Source: Sulfitobacter litoralis (GTDB taxonomy: Bacteria > Pseudomonadota > Alphaproteobacteria > Rhodobacterales > Rhodobacteraceae). Taken from it: a DNA stretch of 64,000 nt. Location of the stretch: contig NZ_FNJD01000016.1 of the NCBI RefSeq assembly GCF_900103185.1, positions 24,424 to 88,423 of the forward strand, read 5' to 3'. Of this stretch, positions 14,153 to 22,911 are shown piece after piece. The notes beneath the pieces were generated by a model, which did not search any database, was not told the origin of the DNA, and saw only the letters and a list, made by a program, of their open reading frames with translations. The position numbers and the translations under genes are program-made. The first letter of the stretch is position 1, and each line of letters begins with the position of its first letter.

Positions 14153-15375
14153 TCGGTCACTCCGGCGCGTTCGCCCGCGCGTTGAATATCATCCATTGCG
14201 GCAGGGTCATCGGCAAACACCTCTACCGCGTTTTCATAGATCGACCGGGCGCGTGCCGTTTCGCCAAGCACCCCTAACGATGAAATCAGTCGCGCCCAAT
14301 CTTCGACGGGTCCGCCTTGGGTTGCCAGCCGTGATGACAGCGTTTCAACCATGCCGCCAATCATTTCCATACGCTCGGCGGGGGTCATGTCCTGTGCCGC
14401 GTCCACATCCTCTGTCGAAGGGCCTCGTAGGGCACCGCTACCAATCTCGGGGACGGTGTAGTCCACGCCGGCCAGCGTGGCGATAGGACCGATCTGCGCG
14501 AGAATAGGCGCGATCCAGGGGGCGTCTTCGGGGCCGCGCCGCAGCAACCCGTCCCACATGCGGAACGCGAGATCGGGGCGCCCCGTTTGCACCAACATCA
14601 AGCCCCAATAATACCGCGCGGTGCCGTTCTCGACCTCACGCGATAGCACAGCACGCAGCACCGCTTCGGCCTCGGGCGAGACATAGCCGCCTGCGGCCAT
14701 TACCATCAGTTCGGCATAGCCCGACACTTCCTCGACCGAGGCTTCCGTGCCTTTCAGGCGCACGACTTTGCCCTGTGCAGCCGCCGCAGCGGCGTAGTTG
14801 CCCACGCGCGCCTCGTTCTGGGCCAGCAGCATGTTGCCTTGGATGTCATCGGGTCGCGCGGCAACCGTGTCACGCAGACGCGTCAGCAAGGCTTGATACT
14901 CCGAGCTTAGCTCGGGCGGCAGGTCGGCGGCAGGCAGCTCTGCTTCGGCGGTGGCTTGATCAGGACGGTTCAGGCGCATGTCTTCGGCCCGTGCGATGCG
15001 GTCCTGCAACGCAAGATCGCCATAGCCCGGTGCCCCCAACTGCCAGTACAGGGCCAAGCTGCCGCCCAGCAATACAACCGCGATGACCGAGGTAACGACA
15101 GGCGAGGGTTTGCCTCCGGCGGATACAACGATGTGACCCGCGGCATCAGCGGCCAGAATACGGCGCGAGATTTCGGTGCGCACACGGGTCGCATCGGCGT
15201 CGGGCAAAACACCGCGGGCCACGTCACGTTCGACCTCGGCCAGTTGATCGCGATAGACTTGAACGTCATGCGCAGCACCGATTTCGGCAGGCATGCTTGC
15301 CCCGCGGGACAAGGCACGCGCCAGCAATACGGTCACGAGCGCGGCCCCTGCGGCGGCAATGATCCAGAAACTCAT
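14149..15375 (-). CDS. ccmI: Cytochrome c biogenesis protein CcmI
   Basis: Membrane-anchored TPR protein that delivers apocytochrome c to the heme ligation machinery (CcmF/H). 408 residues: a first transmembrane helix at about 2-20, a cytoplasmic coiled segment (QVYRDQLAEVERDVARGVL), a second transmembrane helix around 95-112 (VVTSVIAVVLLGGSLALYW) and a periplasmic TPR-like domain. The remaining ccm genes in the window (ccmABCDG) lie about 30 kb away; ccmE, ccmF and ccmH are not in the window. It is followed by ruvX with a 4-base overlap. Confidence 0.9.
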   Translation of the reverse strand: MSFWIIAAAGAALVTVLLARALSRGASMPAEIGAAHDVQVYRDQLAEVERDVARGVLPDADATRVRTEISRRILAADAAGHIVVSAGGKPSPVVTSVIAVVLLGGSLALYWQLGAPGYGDLALQDRIARAEDMRLNRPDQATAEAELPAADLPPELSSEYQALLTRLRDTVAARPDDIQGNMLLAQNEARVGNYAAAAAAQGKVVRLKGTEASVEEVSGYAELMVMAAGGYVSPEAEAVLRAVLSREVENGTARYYWGLMLVQTGRPDLAFRMWDGLLRRGPEDAPWIAPILAQIGPIATLAGVDYTVPEIGSGALRGPSTEDVDAAQDMTPAERMEMIGGMVETLSSRLATQGGPVEDWARLISSLGVLGETARARSIYENAVEVFADDPAAMDDIQRAGERAGVTE

Positions 15376-15610: not shown

Positions 15611-16855
15611 ATGAAGAAATACTCAGCCTTTGCCGTCGCCCGCGAAGCTCTGCGCCATCACACCGGTTGGCAGCGGGCTTGGCGCGATGCGCAGCCCAAG
15701 AAACGCTATGACGTGATCATTGTCGGTGCTGGCGGACATGGTCTGGCGACGGCATACTACTTGGGTAAAAACTTTGGCATCACCAATGTGGCGATCCTTG
15801 AAAAAGGCTGGCTGGGGGGCGGGAACACGGGCCGCAATACGACGATCATCCGCTCGAACTACCTGCAAGATCCCTCTGCTGCGATCTACGAAAAGTCACG
15901 GTCGCTGTATGAAACCATGAGCCAGGACCTGAACTATAACGTCATGTTCAGCCCGCGCGGCGTGATCATGTTGGCGCAGACCCACCACGAGGTGCGCGGC
16001 TACCTGCGTACCGCCCACGCAAACGCGCTGCAGGGTGTGCAAACCGATTTTATCGGGCCTGAAAAGGTCAAAGAGCTGGTCCCGATCATCAACATCGATG
16101 GGCCGCGCTATCCGGTTCTGGGTGGTCTTTGGCAAAAGCGTGGCGGCACGGCACGGCATGATGCTGTGGCGTGGGGCTATGCGCGGGCGTGTTCGGATAT
16201 GGGCATGGACGTGATCCAGAAATGCGAAGTCACCGGCATCCGGCAGGAAAATGGCAAGGTCACCGGCGTCTCAACCAATCGAGGCGACATTGATTGCGAC
16301 AAGCTTGCTATGGTCGTCGCAGGGCACTCGGGGCATTTGGCAGAAATGGCGGGCTTCCGTCTGCCGATCGAATCTGTCGCCCTTCAGGCGCTGGTGTCCG
16401 AACCGATCAAGCCCTGCATGGATGTGGTGATCATGGCCAATACCGTGCACGGCTACATGAGCCAGTCCGACAAGGGTGAAATGGTGATTGGCGGCGGCAC
16501 CGACGGGTACAACAACTACACTCAACGTGGGTCATTCCATCACATCGAAGAAACCGTGCGCGCCTTGGTGGAGACCTTCCCAATGGTCTCGCGGCTCAAG
16601 ATGCTGCGCCAATGGGGCGGGATCGTGGATGTCACGGGGGACCGGTCTCCGATCCTGTCGAAAACGCCGGTGGAAGGCGTATTTGTGAACTGCGGCTGGG
16701 GCACTGGCGGGTTCAAGGCGATCCCAGGATCGGGCTGGGCCATGGCTGAACTGATGGCCAAGGGCCGGTCACCATTGACCGACGCATTTGGGCTCAACCG
16801 GTTCCAGGAAGGGCGCTTTATCGACGAATCCGTGGCGGCAGGGGTGGCCCATTGA
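15611..16855 (+). CDS. soxB: Sarcosine oxidase beta subunit
   Basis: Beta subunit of heterotetrameric sarcosine oxidase, which demethylates sarcosine to glycine with 5,10-methylene-THF (or formaldehyde) and hydrogen peroxide. 414 residues, close to the usual 415-417. The FAD motif VIIVGAGGHGLATAYYLG begins near residue 36, and GGGNTGRNTTIIRSNYL near residue 69 matches the covalent-FMN/FAD region of SoxB. The start at 15611 has GGAG 9 bases upstream. Unlike the common contiguous soxBDAG layout, soxB here is separated from soxD by a small membrane-protein gene and a terminator. Confidence 0.95.
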   Translation: MKKYSAFAVAREALRHHTGWQRAWRDAQPKKRYDVIIVGAGGHGLATAYYLGKNFGITNVAILEKGWLGGGNTGRNTTIIRSNYLQDPSAAIYEKSRSLYETMSQDLNYNVMFSPRGVIMLAQTHHEVRGYLRTAHANALQGVQTDFIGPEKVKELVPIINIDGPRYPVLGGLWQKRGGTARHDAVAWGYARACSDMGMDVIQKCEVTGIRQENGKVTGVSTNRGDIDCDKLAMVVAGHSGHLAEMAGFRLPIESVALQALVSEPIKPCMDVVIMANTVHGYMSQSDKGEMVIGGGTDGYNNYTQRGSFHHIEETVRALVETFPMVSRLKMLRQWGGIVDVTGDRSPILSKTPVEGVFVNCGWGTGGFKAIPGSGWAMAELMAKGRSPLTDAFGLNRFQEGRFIDESVAAGVAH

Positions 16856-16891
16856 TCAGCGTGCGTAACTCAGTTCATTTCGGCAAAGTAC

Positions 16892-16917
16892 GGAACTTTA
16901 TAGGGCGCAGCGGCGTT
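16892..16917 (+). promoter_or_regulatory. EcfG-type general stress promoter motif (GGAAC-N17-CGTT)
   Basis: GGAAC at 16892-16896 and CGTT at 16914-16917 are 17 bases apart, the arrangement bound by the alphaproteobacterial general-stress sigma factor EcfG. It ends 36 bases before the ATG of the small membrane gene at 16953, giving a leader of about 30 bases. The same motif at nearly the same distance precedes the gene at 22250. Whether this organism has the EcfG-PhyR-NepR system is not visible in the window. Confidence 0.6.
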
Positions 16918-16952
16918 TGCACTTCATATCAAGTTTATGAAGGACCATTCAC

Positions 16953-17207
16953 ATGGCAGACCCTGACCACAACCAAGCGCCACACACCACACAAGCGCCC
17001 CAAACCACCGTTAACAAAACCAGCGGCACTGGTTCCGGTATCATCATCGGTGTTCTCGTCGTTCTGGTCCTTGGCTTCGGCTTTTTCTTCTTTTCGGGCG
17101 GCACGCCTGCGACTGATTCCGGTGATATCAACGTCAACGTCGAAGGGGCCACAGATGGCGCTGCCGATGCCGTTGAAGGCGCTGCAGAAGAAGCAACCGG
17201 CAACTAA
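16953..17207 (+). CDS. Small single-pass membrane protein, unknown
   Basis: 84-residue protein with a polar, threonine- and glutamine-rich N-terminus (1-28), one strong transmembrane helix (GIIIGVLVVLVLGFGFFFFSG, about 29-49, quoted here only as a block) and an acidic Ala/Glu/Asp/Gly tail. I do not recognise a family. AAGGA (16940-16944) precedes the ATG. It has a private EcfG-type promoter motif and a private terminator at 17235, so it behaves as a monocistronic insert between soxB and soxD. A role in envelope or osmotic stress is inference from the promoter only. Confidence 0.75.
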   Translation: MADPDHNQAPHTTQAPQTTVNKTSGTGSGIIIGVLVVLVLGFGFFFFSGGTPATDSGDINVNVEGATDGAADAVEGAAEEATGN

Positions 17208-17234
17208 GCCGCTTTCCACTCTATTTATGATGAC

Positions 17235-17268
17235 AAAGGCTGGCCCCCGTGATGGGGCCGGCCTTTTT
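17235..17268 (+). terminator. Rho-independent terminator between the small membrane gene and soxD
   Basis: AAAGGCTGGCCCC (17235-17247) pairs with GGGGCCGGCCTTT (17254-17266) through 13 positions, one of them a G-U, with a 6-base loop and a T-run to 17268. It should end transcription from soxB and the small gene, implying that soxDAG need their own promoter or read-through. Confidence 0.88.
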
Positions 17269-17300
17269 GCGTTTCACGCCAACCTCAAAGGGAGCGCCCC

Positions 17301-17630
17301 ATGCTGACACTGACTTGCCCCAACTGTGGGATCACCGCCGAGGAAACCGAATTTCACGCCGGTGGTGAGGCGCATCTTAAAAGGTTTGGCCCGGGCTCCT
17401 CTGATACCGAATTCGAGCAATATCTGTTTATGCGCGACAACCCCAAGGGCGTGCATTTCGAACGTTGGCGCCACGTCTATGGATGCGGCAAGTGGTTTCA
17501 CGCCGCGCGCGATACCATGACGCTCGAGGTATTTGGGACCTATACCGCCCAGACCAGCACCGTCCCTCAAGATATCATCAACAAGATAATGGACCGTCGC
17601 CCCGACTGGCAGGCATCGACCGCCCCATGA
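17301..17630 (+). CDS. soxD: Sarcosine oxidase delta subunit
   Basis: 109-residue zinc-binding delta subunit of heterotetrameric sarcosine oxidase. The N-terminus has CPNC (residues 6-9), and a later YGCGKWFH segment supplies further ligands, in line with the Cys3-His zinc site of the family. AAAGGGAG lies just before the ATG. It sits 33 bases after a strong terminator and 79 bases before soxA. It is slightly longer than typical deltas of about 95-100 residues, with a short variable C-terminus. Confidence 0.92.
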   Translation: MLTLTCPNCGITAEETEFHAGGEAHLKRFGPGSSDTEFEQYLFMRDNPKGVHFERWRHVYGCGKWFHAARDTMTLEVFGTYTAQTSTVPQDIINKIMDRRPDWQASTAP

Positions 17631-17709
17631 TCGCCGCGCTCCTTCATTTTGCCAAGAAAACTCCCGCCGGAGGCGTCCGCGCTTTCGCAATATTCCAAGG
17701 TTTGACTTC

Positions 17710-20700
17710 ATGAGCACCAGAATTGCCACAGGCGGCCGCCTGCTGAACAAATCAAATGCAGTCAGTTTTTCGTTTAACGGAAAGCAGTTGCGCGGTTTCG
17801 AGGGCGACACGCTGGCCTCGGCTTTGCTAGCGAATGACCAGATGCTGGTGGGGCGTTCGTTCAAATATCACCGTCCGCGCGGCATTGTTGCGGCAGGACC
17901 GGAAGAGCCCAACGCGCTGGTCAATTTGGGACAGGGAGACCGGTTCGAGCCCAATCAACGCGCCACCACCACCGAACTTTTCGACGGCCTGCAGTCCGAG
18001 AGCCAGAATCACTGGCCCAGCCTCGAATTCGATGTGGGCGCGATCAACAAGCATCTTAGCCGGTTCTTGCCTGCGGGCTTTTACTACAAGATGTTCATCC
18101 ACCCGCGTCCCTTCTGGAAGCACGTCTACGAGCCGATCATTCGCCACTCTGCCGGTCTGGGCAAAGCGCCGAAGGATTTGGACGGCGACACCTATGAACA
18201 TTTTCACGCTTTTTGCGATGTGTTGGTCATCGGGGGCGGCGTCGCAGGCCTTGAGGCCGCACGCACAGCGGCGTTGTCTGGTGCAAAAGTGATCGTGTTG
18301 GAACAGACCGCCCATTGGGGAGGACGTGCACCGGTGGACGGTGGCACCGTGGATGGCACGCCTGTTGGGGCCTTCGTCGATACACTGGTAGAAGAGCTAT
18401 CGACGATGGAGAACGTCACCCTGCGCACCCGCGTCATGGGGGCAGGTGTGTATGACCACGGTTATGTGCTGGGCTATGAACGACTGACCGATCACGCGCC
18501 CAAGACTGCCGGGCCGCGCCACCGGCTGTGGCGCATCCGTGCCGGGCATATCGTGACGGCAACCGGCGCGATTGAACGTCCTTTGTCCTTTTCTGGCAAC
18601 GACATACCCGGCGTGATGCTGGCCGCGTCAGTGCGAGATTACTTGGTGAACTATGGCGTCTCGGTCGGGGATCGCACGGTTGTTGTCACCAATAATGACG
18701 ATGCCTACCGCACTGCCATCGCCTTGACCGAGGCCGGTCTGACCGTGCCCGCCATTCTGGATGCTCGCGTATTGCCACAAGACTCCGCGTTGATGGCGCG
18801 GGCCAAGGATCTGGGCATCCGCGTGATGATGGGCCACGCTGTGGCGCGGGTCACAGGTGGCAAGCGCGTGACGGGCGTCGAGGTATGCAGCCAGTCAGGC
18901 GAAGGGGCGGTGCTTGAAACCTTCCCCTGTGATGCGGTGGCCATGTCGGGCGGATGGTCGCCCGTGGTGCATCTGTGGTCCCACTGCGGCGGTAAACTGA
19001 CGTGGGACACGGCCGGTGCGATGTTCCGTCCTGATGTGAACAATCCGCCGCTGGGGGCGGACGGGCATGGGTTTGTGACCGCTGCCGGTGCCGCCGCTGG
19101 TTTCTTTGCGCTGGATGACATCTTGCACGACGCCCATGCTGCAGCCGATGGCGTGGCCACCACTCTGGGGTTCAAGCTGCCCGCTGATGCCGTATCGCCG
19201 AACGCCGACCGGCAAGAGGAAGCGCCGCTCGCCCCCGTCTGGATGATGCCTCAGGGTGCCAACGTTAAACTACGCGAAAAGACGTTTCTGGATTATCAGA
19301 ACGACGTCAAAGTGTCAGACGTGCGGCTCGCCGCGCAAGAAGGGTTCGTCAGCGTCGAACACGCCAAACGCTATACCACGCTGGGGATGGCTACTGATCA
19401 GGGTAAACTGAGCAATATCAACGGACTGGCAACGCTTGCCGGCGCGATGGATGCCGATATTCCTGCTGTGGGCACCACCACCTTCCGCCCGCCGTACCAC
19501 CCGATCTCTATGGGGTCGATCGCGGGCGAGGCGCGCGGCGACGTGTTCCAGCCGATCCGTCGCACGCCGCTGCATGACTGGCACGAGACGAACGGAGCCG
19601 ACTGGGAACCTGTCGGCCACTGGCGACGCCCCTATGCCTATCCCCGCAAAGGCGAAAGCACCCATGACGCGGTCATGCGCGAGGTCACCAACACGCGCAG
19701 CAAACTGGGGATGCTTGATGCCTCCACCCTTGGCAAGATCATCGTCAAAGGGCCGGACGCGGGGCGCTTCCTCGATATGCTTTACACCAATATGATGTCA
19801 TCGCTGAAACCGGGCAAATGCCGCTATGGTCTGATGTGTTCGGAAAACGGTTTCCTGATCGACGATGGCGTGGTTGCGCGGATTGATGAAGAAACCTTCC
19901 TCTGCCACACAACCACGGGCGGCGCGGAAAGCATTCACCAGCATATGGAAGAATGGCTGCAAACCGAGTGGTGGGATTTCAACGTCTACACGGCCAATGT
20001 GACCGAACAATACGCGCAGATCGCCGTGGTCGGTCCCAATGCCCGCACATGTCTTGAAAAGCTCGGCGGCATGGATCTCAGCAAAGAAGCGCTGGCCTTC
20101 ATGGAATGGGCGGACGGCACGCTTGGCGGGTTCAAATGCCGCGTTTACCGGATCTCTTTCTCGGGCGAGCTGAGCTACGAGATCGCGGTGGACGCCGGGC
20201 AGGGGCAGGCGTTCTGGGATGCGCTGATGGTGGCGGGCAATGATCTGGGCGTGATGCCCTATGGCACCGAATGTCTGCACATCTTGCGGGCCGAAAAGGG
20301 CTTTATCATGATCGGGGATGAAACCGACGGCACTGTGATCCCGCAGGATCTGGGGCTGAACTGGGCGATCTCTAAAAAGAAGGACGACTACCTGGGCAAG
20401 CGCGCGCAACAGCGGACGCATATGGCCGATCCAACGCGGTGGAAACTGGTCGGTCTGGAAACCACCGACGGCAGCACCTTGCCGGACGGGGCCTATGCCG
20501 TGGGCGAGGGCGAGAACGAGAACGGCCAGCGCAATATGATCGGGCGCGTCACCTCGACCTATCATTCGCCGACCTTGGGCAAGGGGATCGCCATGGGGCT
20601 GGTGTTGAACGGGCCGGACCGCATGGGCGAGGTGCTCGACTTCCCCGGGACCGACGGCAAGACCTATCAGGCGAAAATCGTCGATCCGGTATTCTATGAC

Positions 20701-20727
20701 AAAGAAGGGGCCAAGCAAAATGTCTGA
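17710..20727 (+). CDS. soxA: Sarcosine oxidase alpha subunit
   Basis: 1005-residue alpha subunit that binds NAD+ and carries the folate-dependent half of the enzyme. Order of domains: N-terminal 2Fe-2S-ferredoxin-like fold without the cluster cysteines (about 15-100), a pyridine nucleotide-disulfide oxidoreductase domain beginning at VLVIGGGVAGLEAARTAAL (about 172-190), then a glycine-cleavage T-protein-like folate domain and its C-terminal barrel (about 600-1000). The last 8 bases overlap soxG, so the two are coupled. Methyl groups released here go to tetrahydrofolate. Confidence 0.96.
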   Translation: MSTRIATGGRLLNKSNAVSFSFNGKQLRGFEGDTLASALLANDQMLVGRSFKYHRPRGIVAAGPEEPNALVNLGQGDRFEPNQRATTTELFDGLQSESQNHWPSLEFDVGAINKHLSRFLPAGFYYKMFIHPRPFWKHVYEPIIRHSAGLGKAPKDLDGDTYEHFHAFCDVLVIGGGVAGLEAARTAALSGAKVIVLEQTAHWGGRAPVDGGTVDGTPVGAFVDTLVEELSTMENVTLRTRVMGAGVYDHGYVLGYERLTDHAPKTAGPRHRLWRIRAGHIVTATGAIERPLSFSGNDIPGVMLAASVRDYLVNYGVSVGDRTVVVTNNDDAYRTAIALTEAGLTVPAILDARVLPQDSALMARAKDLGIRVMMGHAVARVTGGKRVTGVEVCSQSGEGAVLETFPCDAVAMSGGWSPVVHLWSHCGGKLTWDTAGAMFRPDVNNPPLGADGHGFVTAAGAAAGFFALDDILHDAHAAADGVATTLGFKLPADAVSPNADRQEEAPLAPVWMMPQGANVKLREKTFLDYQNDVKVSDVRLAAQEGFVSVEHAKRYTTLGMATDQGKLSNINGLATLAGAMDADIPAVGTTTFRPPYHPISMGSIAGEARGDVFQPIRRTPLHDWHETNGADWEPVGHWRRPYAYPRKGESTHDAVMREVTNTRSKLGMLDASTLGKIIVKGPDAGRFLDMLYTNMMSSLKPGKCRYGLMCSENGFLIDDGVVARIDEETFLCHTTTGGAESIHQHMEEWLQTEWWDFNVYTANVTEQYAQIAVVGPNARTCLEKLGGMDLSKEALAFMEWADGTLGGFKCRVYRISFSGELSYEIAVDAGQGQAFWDALMVAGNDLGVMPYGTECLHILRAEKGFIMIGDETDGTVIPQDLGLNWAISKKKDDYLGKRAQQRTHMADPTRWKLVGLETTDGSTLPDGAYAVGEGENENGQRNMIGRVTSTYHSPTLGKGIAMGLVLNGPDRMGEVLDFPGTDGKTYQAKIVDPVFYDKEGAKQNV

Positions 20728-21301
20728 GGCGGTAAGCGCATTGAAAGCGGCAGAATTCACCGGCGGCATTGCCGAGGTAACCCTGATGGATCCGATTGGC
20801 ATGATCTCTGTCCGCGGGGATCTAACGGCGGCCTATATGAAGAAAGCGCTGAAAAAGGCCGTCGGCCTGGGCCTTCCCGACACCCGCAGCGTCCAGATCA
20901 ACGGGGATCGCGGTGTCGCATGGATGTCACCGGACGAGCTGCTGTTGCTCTGCCCCTATGATCAGGTCAGCGACACGATCGACATGCTGACCAAATGCTT
21001 TGGCAGCAATCACACGCTGGCGGTCAATGTATCCGACGCGCGGGCGGTGTTCCGCATTAGCGGCGCGCACAGCCGCGACGTGCTGGCCAAGCTTGCGCCT
21101 GTGGACCTGTCGCCAGCGACCTTTACCCCCGGCATGATCCGCCGCACGCGGCTGGCGCAAGTACCGGCGGCGTTCTGGATCGAAGAGGGTGACAGCTTCC
21201 GTCTTGTCTGCTTCCGGTCGGTCGCGCTTTACGTGTATGATCTGCTTAAGATCGCGGCGCAGCCCGGTTCGGCCCCTGTATTTTATAGCGCCAAGCCGTA
21301 A
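20720..21301 (+). CDS. soxG: Sarcosine oxidase gamma subunit
   Basis: 193-residue gamma subunit with the aminomethyltransferase-like fold that pairs with the alpha C-terminal domain. The start at 20720 overlaps soxA by 8 bases and has AGAAGGGG (20703-20710) upstream; an earlier in-frame ATG lies inside soxA and adds residues outside the family. The conserved MSPDELLLL and FRISGAHSRDVLAKL stretches are visible. It ends the sox genes; a hairpin terminator follows within 30 bases. No purU, folD or gcv gene follows, unlike some sox clusters. Confidence 0.92.
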   Translation: MSEAVSALKAAEFTGGIAEVTLMDPIGMISVRGDLTAAYMKKALKKAVGLGLPDTRSVQINGDRGVAWMSPDELLLLCPYDQVSDTIDMLTKCFGSNHTLAVNVSDARAVFRISGAHSRDVLAKLAPVDLSPATFTPGMIRRTRLAQVPAAFWIEEGDSFRLVCFRSVALYVYDLLKIAAQPGSAPVFYSAKP

Positions 21302-21327
21302 GTCGCTGATCAAGGGTAGGGCGGTGC

Positions 21328-21361
21328 GCTGGCGGGAACATTCCCGCTGGCCAGCCGTTTT
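21328..21361 (+). terminator. Terminator after soxG
   Basis: Nested inverted repeats: GCGGGAA (21332-21338) with TTCCCGC (21341-21347), and GCTGGC (21328-21333) with GCCAGC (21350-21355), followed by CGTTTTA. The T-run is short, but the stem is very stable. It sits in the 195-base gap between soxG and sodB. Confidence 0.65.
21335..21359 (+). promoter_or_regulatory. Weak third GGAAC-CGTT motif before sodB
   Basis: GGAAC (21335-21339) and CGTT (21356-21359) are 16 bases apart, also an accepted EcfG spacing, and sodB would be a sensible stress target. However the motif lies wholly inside the soxG terminator hairpin and is 138 bases from the sodB start, so it may be coincidence. Confidence 0.25.
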
Positions 21362-21496
21362 ACCTTTAAGCGGGTGACAATCCAAGCGCCCCGTCAGCCG
21401 TGTCGGTTTCCCCCTTGCGGGTCGATCAGCACTTGACCTTATGACGGGACGGGCTTCATGTGACCCAGACGCAATTCAATAACGGAGGCTTTTCTC

Positions 21497-22096
21497 ATGG
21501 CTTTTACTCTTCCTGATCTTCCCTATGCCCACGATGCGCTTGCATCCAAAGGTATGTCCAAGGAAACGTTGGAATATCACCACGATAAGCACCACAACGC
21601 CTATGTGACCAACGGCAACAAAGCCATTGAAGGCACCGAGTGGGAAGGCAAAACCCTCGAGGAAATAATCAAGGGCACCTACAACCCTGATGCGGTCGCG
21701 CAAAGCGGCATCTTCAACAACATCAGCCAGCTGTGGAACCACAACCAGTTCTGGGAAATGATGTCCCCCGACGACAGCAAAATGCCGTCCGAGCTGGAAA
21801 AAGCGATCACCGAAAGCTTTGGGTCGGTCGATAAGTTCAAGGACGAATTCAAGGCAGCCGGTGGCGGTCAGTTCGGCTCCGGTTGGGCGTGGCTGGTTAA
21901 GGACACCGACGGCGGCCTGAAAGTGACCAAGACGGAAAACGGCGTGAACCCCGTTTGCTTTGGTCAAACCGCACTGCTGGGTTGCGATGTTTGGGAACAC
22001 TCCTACTACATCGATTTCCGCAACGCGCGCCCCGACTACCTGTCGAACTTCCTCGACAATCTGGTGAACTGGGATAACGTTGCATCTCGCATGTAA
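21497..22096 (+). CDS. sodB: Superoxide dismutase, Fe type
   Basis: 199-residue cytosolic iron superoxide dismutase. Metal ligands are visible as H28 (LEYHHDKHH), the histidine of QLWNHNQFW, and the aspartate and histidine of CDVWEHSYYIDF. The glutamine next to the second ligand (ISQLWNH) is the Fe-type hallmark. ACGGAGG lies upstream of the ATG. It follows sarcosine oxidase, a peroxide-producing enzyme, but with a terminator between them. A strong terminator follows at 22149. Cambialistic Fe/Mn use cannot be excluded from sequence. Confidence 0.95.
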   Translation: MAFTLPDLPYAHDALASKGMSKETLEYHHDKHHNAYVTNGNKAIEGTEWEGKTLEEIIKGTYNPDAVAQSGIFNNISQLWNHNQFWEMMSPDDSKMPSELEKAITESFGSVDKFKDEFKAAGGGQFGSGWAWLVKDTDGGLKVTKTENGVNPVCFGQTALLGCDVWEHSYYIDFRNARPDYLSNFLDNLVNWDNVASRM

Positions 22097-22148
22097 TAGC
22101 GATTTAATCGGTTAAGGCATCGCGCCAAGCCGTTGATATACCTATGTT

Positions 22149-22182
22149 AAAGGCCCTGCAGCATTCCGCTGTGGGGCCTTTT
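22149..22182 (+). terminator. Rho-independent terminator of sodB
   Basis: AAAGGCCC (22149-22156) pairs with GGGCCTTT (22174-22181). The stem continues inward through GCAGC/GCTGT to a 5-base loop, about 14 pairs in all, and ends in TTTT. It closes sodB six bases before the next promoter motif. Confidence 0.9.
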
Positions 22183-22187
22183 CTTGT

Positions 22188-22213
22188 GGAACCACCCGTG
22201 TGACTGGGGCGTT
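22188..22213 (+). promoter_or_regulatory. EcfG-type general stress promoter motif (GGAAC-N17-CGTT)
   Basis: GGAAC at 22188-22192 and CGTT at 22210-22213 with 17 bases between. It ends 37 bases before the ATG at 22250, almost identical to the geometry at 16892-16917. Being directly after a terminator and before a two-gene unit makes it a convincing promoter. Assignment to EcfG is from the consensus known in other alphaproteobacteria. Confidence 0.65.
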
Positions 22214-22249: not shown

Positions 22250-22459
22250 ATGGCAGAGCGTCACAGATCGAAGGACGGCGTCAAGGAAACCGACAAATAC
22301 ATCAGCGAAGCCGATGATATTGACCATCAGGGCCGCTTTGGCGGCGGGCTGCAACGCGATGTCGGCACCCAGGACGAAGAGAAACAGGTGGTCGACAAAC
22401 CCGGCGCTGACACCCGCGTCACCGGCGAAGACGAACGCAACCACGGAGAAGACGCATGA
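22250..22459 (+). CDS. Small charged protein, unknown, first gene of a stress-type pair
   Basis: 69-residue, very hydrophilic protein rich in Asp, Glu, Lys, Arg and Gly, with no cysteine, signal peptide or membrane segment. Its composition suggests a disordered protein. I do not recognise a family. AAGGAGA (22237-22243) gives a strong start. The last codons overlap the ATG of the host-attachment-family gene by four bases, so the two proteins are translationally coupled and probably act in the same condition, presumably a general stress or stationary-phase response driven by the motif at 22188. Confidence 0.75.
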   Translation: MAERHRSKDGVKETDKYISEADDIDHQGRFGGGLQRDVGTQDEEKQVVDKPGADTRVTGEDERNHGEDA

Positions 22460-22911
22460 CCAAGATTGAAAATGGCACTTGGGTACTGATCGCCGACGGT
22501 GAAAAAGCGCTTTTCATGGTGAATGAAACCGACGGAGAGGATCCTTTCTTTCAGGTGTTTCGCGAAGAAGAGCAAGAGAATCCACCAAACCGTGATCAGG
22601 CCGCAAACCGACGGGGGCGCTTTAACGATGGCCCATCAGTGCACCGGTCCGCTGTGGATGACACCGACTGGCACCAGCTATCCAAGGACCGTTTTGCAGC
22701 AGAGCTGGCCGAGATCCTGTATAAGCAAGCACACAAGGGCAAGTTCGACAAGATCGTTCTCGTCGCTCCGCCGAATACCTTGGGAGAGCTGCGTCGCGAG
22801 ATGCACCAAGAGGTCGCAAACAAAGTCGTAGGCGAAATCCCCAAGACATTGACCAACCACCCCATCGAAGAAATCGAGAATATCGTGAAATCGACACTCG
22901 ACGCAGCGTGA
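22456..22911 (+). CDS. Host attachment family protein (PF10116 / baeRF-like)
   Basis: 151-residue soluble protein of the family annotated as required for attachment to host cells (Agrobacterium AtsE-like), a group related in fold to archaeal release-factor-like baeRF proteins. Recognisable features are the opening WVLIADGEKALF, the central FAAELAEILYKQ and the stretch FDKIVLVAPPNTLGELR near residues 97-113. The true biochemical role is unknown and the host-attachment label comes from one phenotype. It overlaps the upstream 69-residue gene by four bases and is followed by a terminator at 23000. Confidence 0.85.
   Translation: MTKIENGTWVLIADGEKALFMVNETDGEDPFFQVFREEEQENPPNRDQAANRRGRFNDGPSVHRSAVDDTDWHQLSKDRFAAELAEILYKQAHKGKFDKIVLVAPPNTLGELRREMHQEVANKVVGEIPKTLTNHPIEEIENIVKSTLDAA

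Follow-up and report, generated by a model that had tools for sequence, protein, structure and literature searches.

Two sites in a 64,000-nucleotide stretch of the Sulfitobacter litoralis genome (contig NZ_FNJD01000016.1, positions 24,424 to 88,423; hereafter the window) are almost certainly promoters of EcfG, the sigma factor of the alphaproteobacterial general stress response. Both have the form GGAAC-N17-CGTT and lie on the forward strand, at 16892-16917 (promoter 1) and 22188-22213 (promoter 2). The initial annotation of this DNA had taken them for EcfG promoters, and three observations agree with that proposal: the regulators are encoded in the genome, the motif is enriched upstream of genes, and the sites are conserved upstream of orthologues. 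The predicted target of promoter 1 is a small gene for a membrane protein, which sits within a sarcosine oxidase operon. Promoter 2 would drive a two-gene operon whose main product, a protein of the baeRF12 family, is predicted to act on ribosomes. We give this explanation as a whole a probability of roughly 80%. The promoter call is fairly ordinary, as a known regulon gains members; the notable point is that an EcfG promoter precedes a Balon-like domain standing alone.

Both pairs of half-sites are present where they had been reported, with spacers of 17 bases. The ATG codons follow 35 and 36 bases after the last T, so the reported geometry holds, the earlier values of 36 and 37 having been counted to the A. 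The description of the promoters as nearly identical fits the nine fixed bases but not the spacers, which differ. Shuffled windows average 1.02 matches to GGAAC-N16/17-CGTT, in line with the earlier estimate of about one by chance per 64 kb; the window contains four such matches rather than two, and four or more occur in 2 of 100 shuffles. One further match (14562-14587) was rejected as a promoter because it lies antisense within a coding region. The other (21335-21359) is located 137 nucleotides (nt) upstream of sodB and overlaps the palindrome CGGGAACATTCCCG. It was set aside as a third promoter, as a relaxed match is found upstream of sodB in just 3 of 15 relatives (L249, L252, and L267, within 220 nt; L and G numbers are our locus and genome identifiers, and sodB starts near baeRF12 in 15 of 33 loci). 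EcfG may still act on sodB weakly or now and then. A sigma-70 scan returned 1 site, against 3.1 in shuffles.

Genome-wide, the strict pattern has 61 matches, the same half-sites at a wrong spacing (21 or 22 bases apart) have 52, and the pattern read backwards has 108. Given that the raw count is barely raised (61 vs 52), counting was rejected as evidence, and the case is carried by position and conservation. Of the 61 strict matches, 25 precede a same-strand gene start by no more than 150 nt, 20 of them at 16-60 nt. The others are otherwise intergenic (4) or inside genes in the sense (13) or antisense (19) direction, and for two of the matches inside genes there is, in addition, a start no more than 100 nt away. 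At the wrong spacing, only one of 52 matches precedes a gene (at 2 nt) and one is otherwise intergenic (Fisher, 2e-7). The congener G041 is 99% complete and gave no NepR match, and none of its 62 strict matches is upstream of a gene; all are inside genes, 31 sense and 31 antisense (Fisher, 1e-9), this comparison being between one genome of each kind (G000, that of the window, and G041). The motif is thus enriched upstream of genes relative to both controls, in keeping with the proposal of the annotation. Genes were predicted with a home-made codon-usage caller checked by eye on 17 kb of the window, so that starts are approximate; the same caller, with a codon table trained per genome, was used for all sets. 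When G or T is required before GTT, there are 78 matches (75 once identical repeats are merged), 27 of them upstream of genes.

The gene behind promoter 1 (16953-17207, forward strand) encodes a protein of 84 amino acids (aa) with one hydrophobic stretch and no Pfam or NCBIfam family, and was found in 48 of 118 genomes. Thirty loci were examined for this gene and thirty for the 69-aa gene behind promoter 2. The motif GGAAC-N17-nGTT precedes the 84-aa gene in 29 of 30 loci, with CGTT in 13 of these, and it ends 35 nt from the start in 28 loci and 41 nt from it in the remaining one. In 21 upstream regions less than 80% alike (including one without the site), the information content is 1.5-2.0 bits per base in GGAAC and GTT, 0.0-0.4 in the spacer, and 0.2 at the first -10 base. 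High half-sites and a spacer near zero point to a promoter pattern rather than mere relatedness. A CA conserved at -28/-27 (1.3 and 1.0 bits) in the same regions suggests that transcription starts at its A, position 16926 on the forward strand.

Promoter 2 precedes a charged 69-aa protein that is predicted to be disordered and has no family (22250-22459, forward strand), followed by the 151-aa baeRF12 protein (PF18856; 22456-22911, forward strand), whose start overlaps the preceding stop by four bases (ATGA). The 69-aa protein was found in 32 of 118 genomes. GGAAC-N16/17-nGTT is located 30-41 nt before its gene in 28 of 30 loci (CGTT in 16), and a clear baeRF12 follows in 27, with the four-base overlap in 25. 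The two loci lacking the site are L090 and L091, which hold stand-alone copies (reverse strand of the locus, 1465-1665 and 1477-1677, respectively) that no baeRF12 gene follows. At L066 (genome G057), baeRF12 gives only a weak match, in a single frame (score 96; other loci with the overlap score 480-790), and may be a broken or diverged copy. AlphaFold2 gave no fold for the 69-aa family (predicted local distance difference test, pLDDT, 56; predicted template modelling score, pTM, 0.15), and the protein is probably disordered. The conservation of sites upstream of orthologues ties both units to the EcfG regulon, in support of the earlier suggestion that they share one stress regulon.

We also considered 33 named baeRF12 loci, 32 of which have sufficient upstream sequence (L254 has 18 bases). 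In 28 of the 32, GGAA[CT]-N16/17-nGTT is present within 200 nt before baeRF12 or before a gene run that ends in it; the distance from the site to the start that follows is 107 nt at L270 and 112 nt at L273. Five Sulfitobacter or Roseobacter records (L246-L250) lack the 69-aa gene, and in these the site directly precedes baeRF12 at a distance of 35-37 nt. Roseitalea, Oceaniradius, Qipengyuania, and Erythrobacter account for the four loci that lack a site. In Marivita-type loci (L274-L278), a DUF4112-looking gene joins the 69-aa/baeRF12 run behind one EcfG-type site, accompanied in L276-L278 by a 52-aa Pmp3-looking gene; in the genome of the window, DUF4112 is a separate gene with its own EcfG site (L035).

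The proposed check for ecfG, nepR, and phyR in the genome found nepR, phyR, and an ecfG-like gene together in one locus. NepR is encoded once in the 3.68-Mb, 63-contig genome (PF18557, 58.3 bits, above the cut-off). Adjoining it are a PhyR-family gene (269 aa; NF006623, 346 bits, cut-off 240) and an extracytoplasmic function (ECF) sigma factor gene (185 aa; NF009198, 324 bits, cut-off 270), which we call EcfG by context. The gene of an HWE-type kinase (573 aa) lies beside nepR and scores 231 bits, under the PhyK cut-off of 750. The phyR gene is divergent from the nepR, sigma factor, and kinase genes. A GGTT-type site 34 nt upstream of phyR is inside a palindrome shared with the divergent nepR side (L033:8475-8507, contig C28 of G000). 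This palindrome has perfect 10-bp arms, GGAACCAAAC and GTTTGGTTCC, and GGAAC on each strand, so that a single element could serve both divergent regulator genes. The initial annotation had described the EcfG system as patchy in Rhodobacteraceae, and the distribution of NepR agrees with this: within the genus 57 of 62 genomes have a match, and among the other genomes of the family 4 of 8 do, with one match in each group falling below the Pfam cut-off.

The genes behind the 25 strict sites include 21 scanned for families together and three window genes scanned separately (L023 was left out). The families comprise OsmC, hemerythrin, DUF4112, DUF892, DUF883, PRC-barrel (two), DJ-1/PfpI (two), aldehyde dehydrogenase, acyltransferase, rhodanese, CsbD, a mechanosensitive channel, OmpA, and glycine zippers. 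Nine of the 27 genes downstream of G/T sites were scanned, adding a catalase, a second aldehyde dehydrogenase, a second mechanosensitive channel, a pyridoxamine-oxidase-like protein, and DUF3008. No family was found for 7 of these 30 proteins (21 strict-site and nine G/T-set). A sequence-level EcfG regulon is now given for a Rhodobacteraceae genus.

Several of these target kinds recur in the EcfG table of S. melonis Fr1, as seen in the available part of that study (PMC6599016). The EcfG motif there is likewise GGAAC-N17-20-GTT, with most sites less than 100 bp from the start, and the top targets are similar: PRC-barrel, aldehyde dehydrogenase, catalase, stress protein 26, and a "Protein required for attachment to host cells". 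For the last, the log2 ratio in the ecfG mutant is -3.9, and a motif lies 34 nt before the gene; its name suggests a baeRF12 relative, and it offers a counterpart, shown by expression, to the control of baeRF12 proposed here. S. melonis belongs to another order, its attachment gene carries GCAAC and appears as a single entry, and the sections of the text available to us contain no mention of ribosomes (PMC6599016). Among the literature matches listed, which leave subscription journals mostly uncovered, none links a baeRF protein, by that name, to EcfG.

Judged from the families of the regulators, EcfG would be held by NepR, leaving both promoters silent, until PhyR phosphorylated under stress removes NepR and both promoters open. 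Transcripts would then start about 9 nt after CGTT and be induced by stress. The baeRF12 protein scores 177.6 bits with PF18856 (the bacterial archaeo-eukaryotic release factor family; curated cut-off 27.7), and the model of its structure matches the middle domain of Balon and eRF1, the aeRF1-type middle-domain fold. Fold and family predict that it is a stand-alone version of this domain, which would enter the ribosomal A site near the peptidyl-transferase centre and hold or clear idle or stalled ribosomes. It has no GGQ and would therefore not release peptides; residues 38-75 hold 14 of the 37 invariant columns. The 69-aa protein is predicted to be a translationally coupled accessory. A search of the PDB with a sequence profile of baeRF12 found no relative, with two matches near E 0.1 to anthranilate phosphoribosyltransferase.

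Balon, Rv2629, and Msmeg1130 resemble baeRF12 in having a homologous middle-domain fold without GGQ, according to the portion of the Balon study at hand (PMC10901736). Balon has three domains and more than 300 residues, whereas baeRF12 has one domain and 151 residues; taking three domains and at least 300 residues as the definition, we did not file it as Balon. The same source reports that Balon-type genes are usually found in stress-response operons, and that proteins of fewer than 300 residues were removed from the survey (PMC10901736). The baeRF proteins of Burroughs and Aravind also carry an aeRF1-type domain in bacteria, and a stress or hibernation role has been proposed for them (PMC6514570, available in part). 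Most baeRF families show poor conservation around the catalytic loop (PMC6514570), while the loop at 38-75 is conserved here. An EcfG promoter in front of a ribosome-hibernation-like core fold would tie general stress directly to ribosome holding or rescue. More tentatively, 22250-22911 could be a minimal stress-induced ribosome module, consisting of a single middle domain, a highly conserved loop replacing GGQ, and a coupled disordered partner. If so, the general stress response of marine roseobacters would use it to hold or clear ribosomes, and it would represent a single-domain class of hibernation factor missed by the length filter of the Balon survey.

Each part of this explanation has competitors. 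With about one match expected per window, and two other window matches that look accidental, one could read both sites as chance occurrences without promoter function; half-sites kept around free spacers in 29 of 30 and 28 of 30 loci, together with the enrichment upstream of genes, make this exceedingly unlikely. ECF consensus sequences resemble one another, and the sites could be genuine promoters whose main reader is a different sigma factor, of the ECF or RpoE-like kind, with a similar -35. In R. sphaeroides, PhyR is without a major general-stress role and RpoE and RpoH dominate, as far as the accessible part of that report goes (PMC5830050). The R. sphaeroides PhyR locus resembles ours, with kinase, sigma factor, and small anti-sigma genes divergent from phyR; it differs in that the role of PhyR is specialised to membrane stress and that no promoter regulon is described in the same part (PMC5830050). 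The complete lack of intergenic strict matches in the NepR-negative G041 (other ECF sigma genes being unsurveyed in both genomes) and the agreement with the motif derived in S. melonis (PMC6599016) render reading by another sigma factor quite improbable.

Promoter 1 might instead act chiefly on soxDAG, which follow the 84-aa gene, and so couple the breakdown of osmolytes to stress. The surroundings fit this: in 29 of 30 loci the unit has soxB before it, ending 82-130 nt upstream of the 84-aa gene, and soxD behind it, 81-669 nt downstream. However, a terminator-like hairpin stands between the 84-aa gene and soxD, and in 25 genomes picked for lacking an 84-aa hit or NepR, 18 of the 21 loci with this soxB paralogue (among 57 sox loci) have no site and 3 have one; at L350, L356, and L374 the site precedes a small gene with a hydrophobic stretch, and two of these three loci belong to the NepR-negative genomes G059 and G017. 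We consider a main role for soxDAG improbable: the 84-aa unit resembles an autonomous insert, and stress is less likely to raise soxDAG expression. That the 84-aa membrane protein serves the envelope under stress is a guess. As for baeRF12, the initial annotation had labelled it host-attachment, and the older family PF10116 (Host_attach, "required for attachment to host cells") does match at 134 bits, so the protein might work outside the ribosome, for example in attachment. PF18856, at 178 bits, outscores PF10116, the fold is that of the Balon/eRF1 middle domain, and entry into the A site has been proposed for baeRF proteins (PMC6514570, in the part available). The label is therefore misleading, and a function away from the ribosome appears unlikely. 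In its place stands a testable claim: a single-domain relative of hibernation factors is under the command of the general stress response in these bacteria.

Several observations weigh against EcfG promoters driving a nested membrane-protein gene and a ribosome-acting operon. The evidence for the promoters is at the level of sequence, and raw motif counts are hardly raised. The NepR-negative genomes G017 (87% complete) and G059 (66%) keep the 84-aa gene with its site. The baeRF12 model has a mean pLDDT of 72, with the loop at 38-75 below 50, and a shared fold shows no function. The site is also rare before baeRF12 class-wide. In a class-wide set of 70 loci (the search matched 86 of 289 genomes; four loci with sub-cut-off NepR were dropped from both groups), a site is present within 400 nt before baeRF12 in 3 of 29 NepR-positive loci, including the genome of the window and one congener, and in 1 of 37 NepR-negative loci. 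With GCAAC allowed and a 200-nt limit, the values are again 3 of 29 (L279, L280, and L327; the window's own site is beyond the limit) and 1 of 37. Wrong-spacing hits number 2 and 0 over 12 spacings (400 nt) and 2 and 1 over 10 spacings (200 nt). The idea of EcfG control of baeRF12 throughout Alphaproteobacteria thus failed. Given that sites are found in relatives but are rare class-wide, control of baeRF12 is, in this sample, a Rhodobacteraceae habit.

NepR matches were detected in 67 of 118 genomes (two below the cut-off), including all 32 with the 69-aa protein, while three of the 48 with the 84-aa protein (G017, G059, and G064) have none. The complete NepR-negative congeners G002 and G041 gave no match to the 84-aa, 69-aa, or baeRF12 queries, and the NepR-positive G015, G016, and G023 gave no baeRF12 match either. 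As 57 of 62 congeners have NepR, co-occurrence is weak evidence; the positional test in G041 is strong and comes from one genome.

The nested unit of promoter 1 is flanked by the soxB-like gene (sarcosine oxidase beta subunit; 15611-16855, forward strand), named from its place before soxD, and by soxD (PF04267; 17301-17630, forward strand). The hairpin that closes the unit (17235-17266, forward strand) has 13 pairs. A stem of 11-12 pairs without mismatch, but with changed bases, is found in all 17 closest loci (L096-L112), and the other 13 are weaker or different; this comparison was made without a shuffle control. The terminator scan gave 9 hits against 8.2 in shuffles, so support for this hairpin comes from its strength and conservation. 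The soxB-soxD gap (16856-17300) looks like an insertion spot. It is empty in other genomes, for example at L376 in the NepR-negative G006, where soxD follows soxB after 69 nt with nothing between. Elsewhere it holds, by names given by eye, a glyoxalase/FosA-looking gene (L459 and L464), a protein of about 200 aa (L369 and L479), or a TfoX-looking gene (L478).
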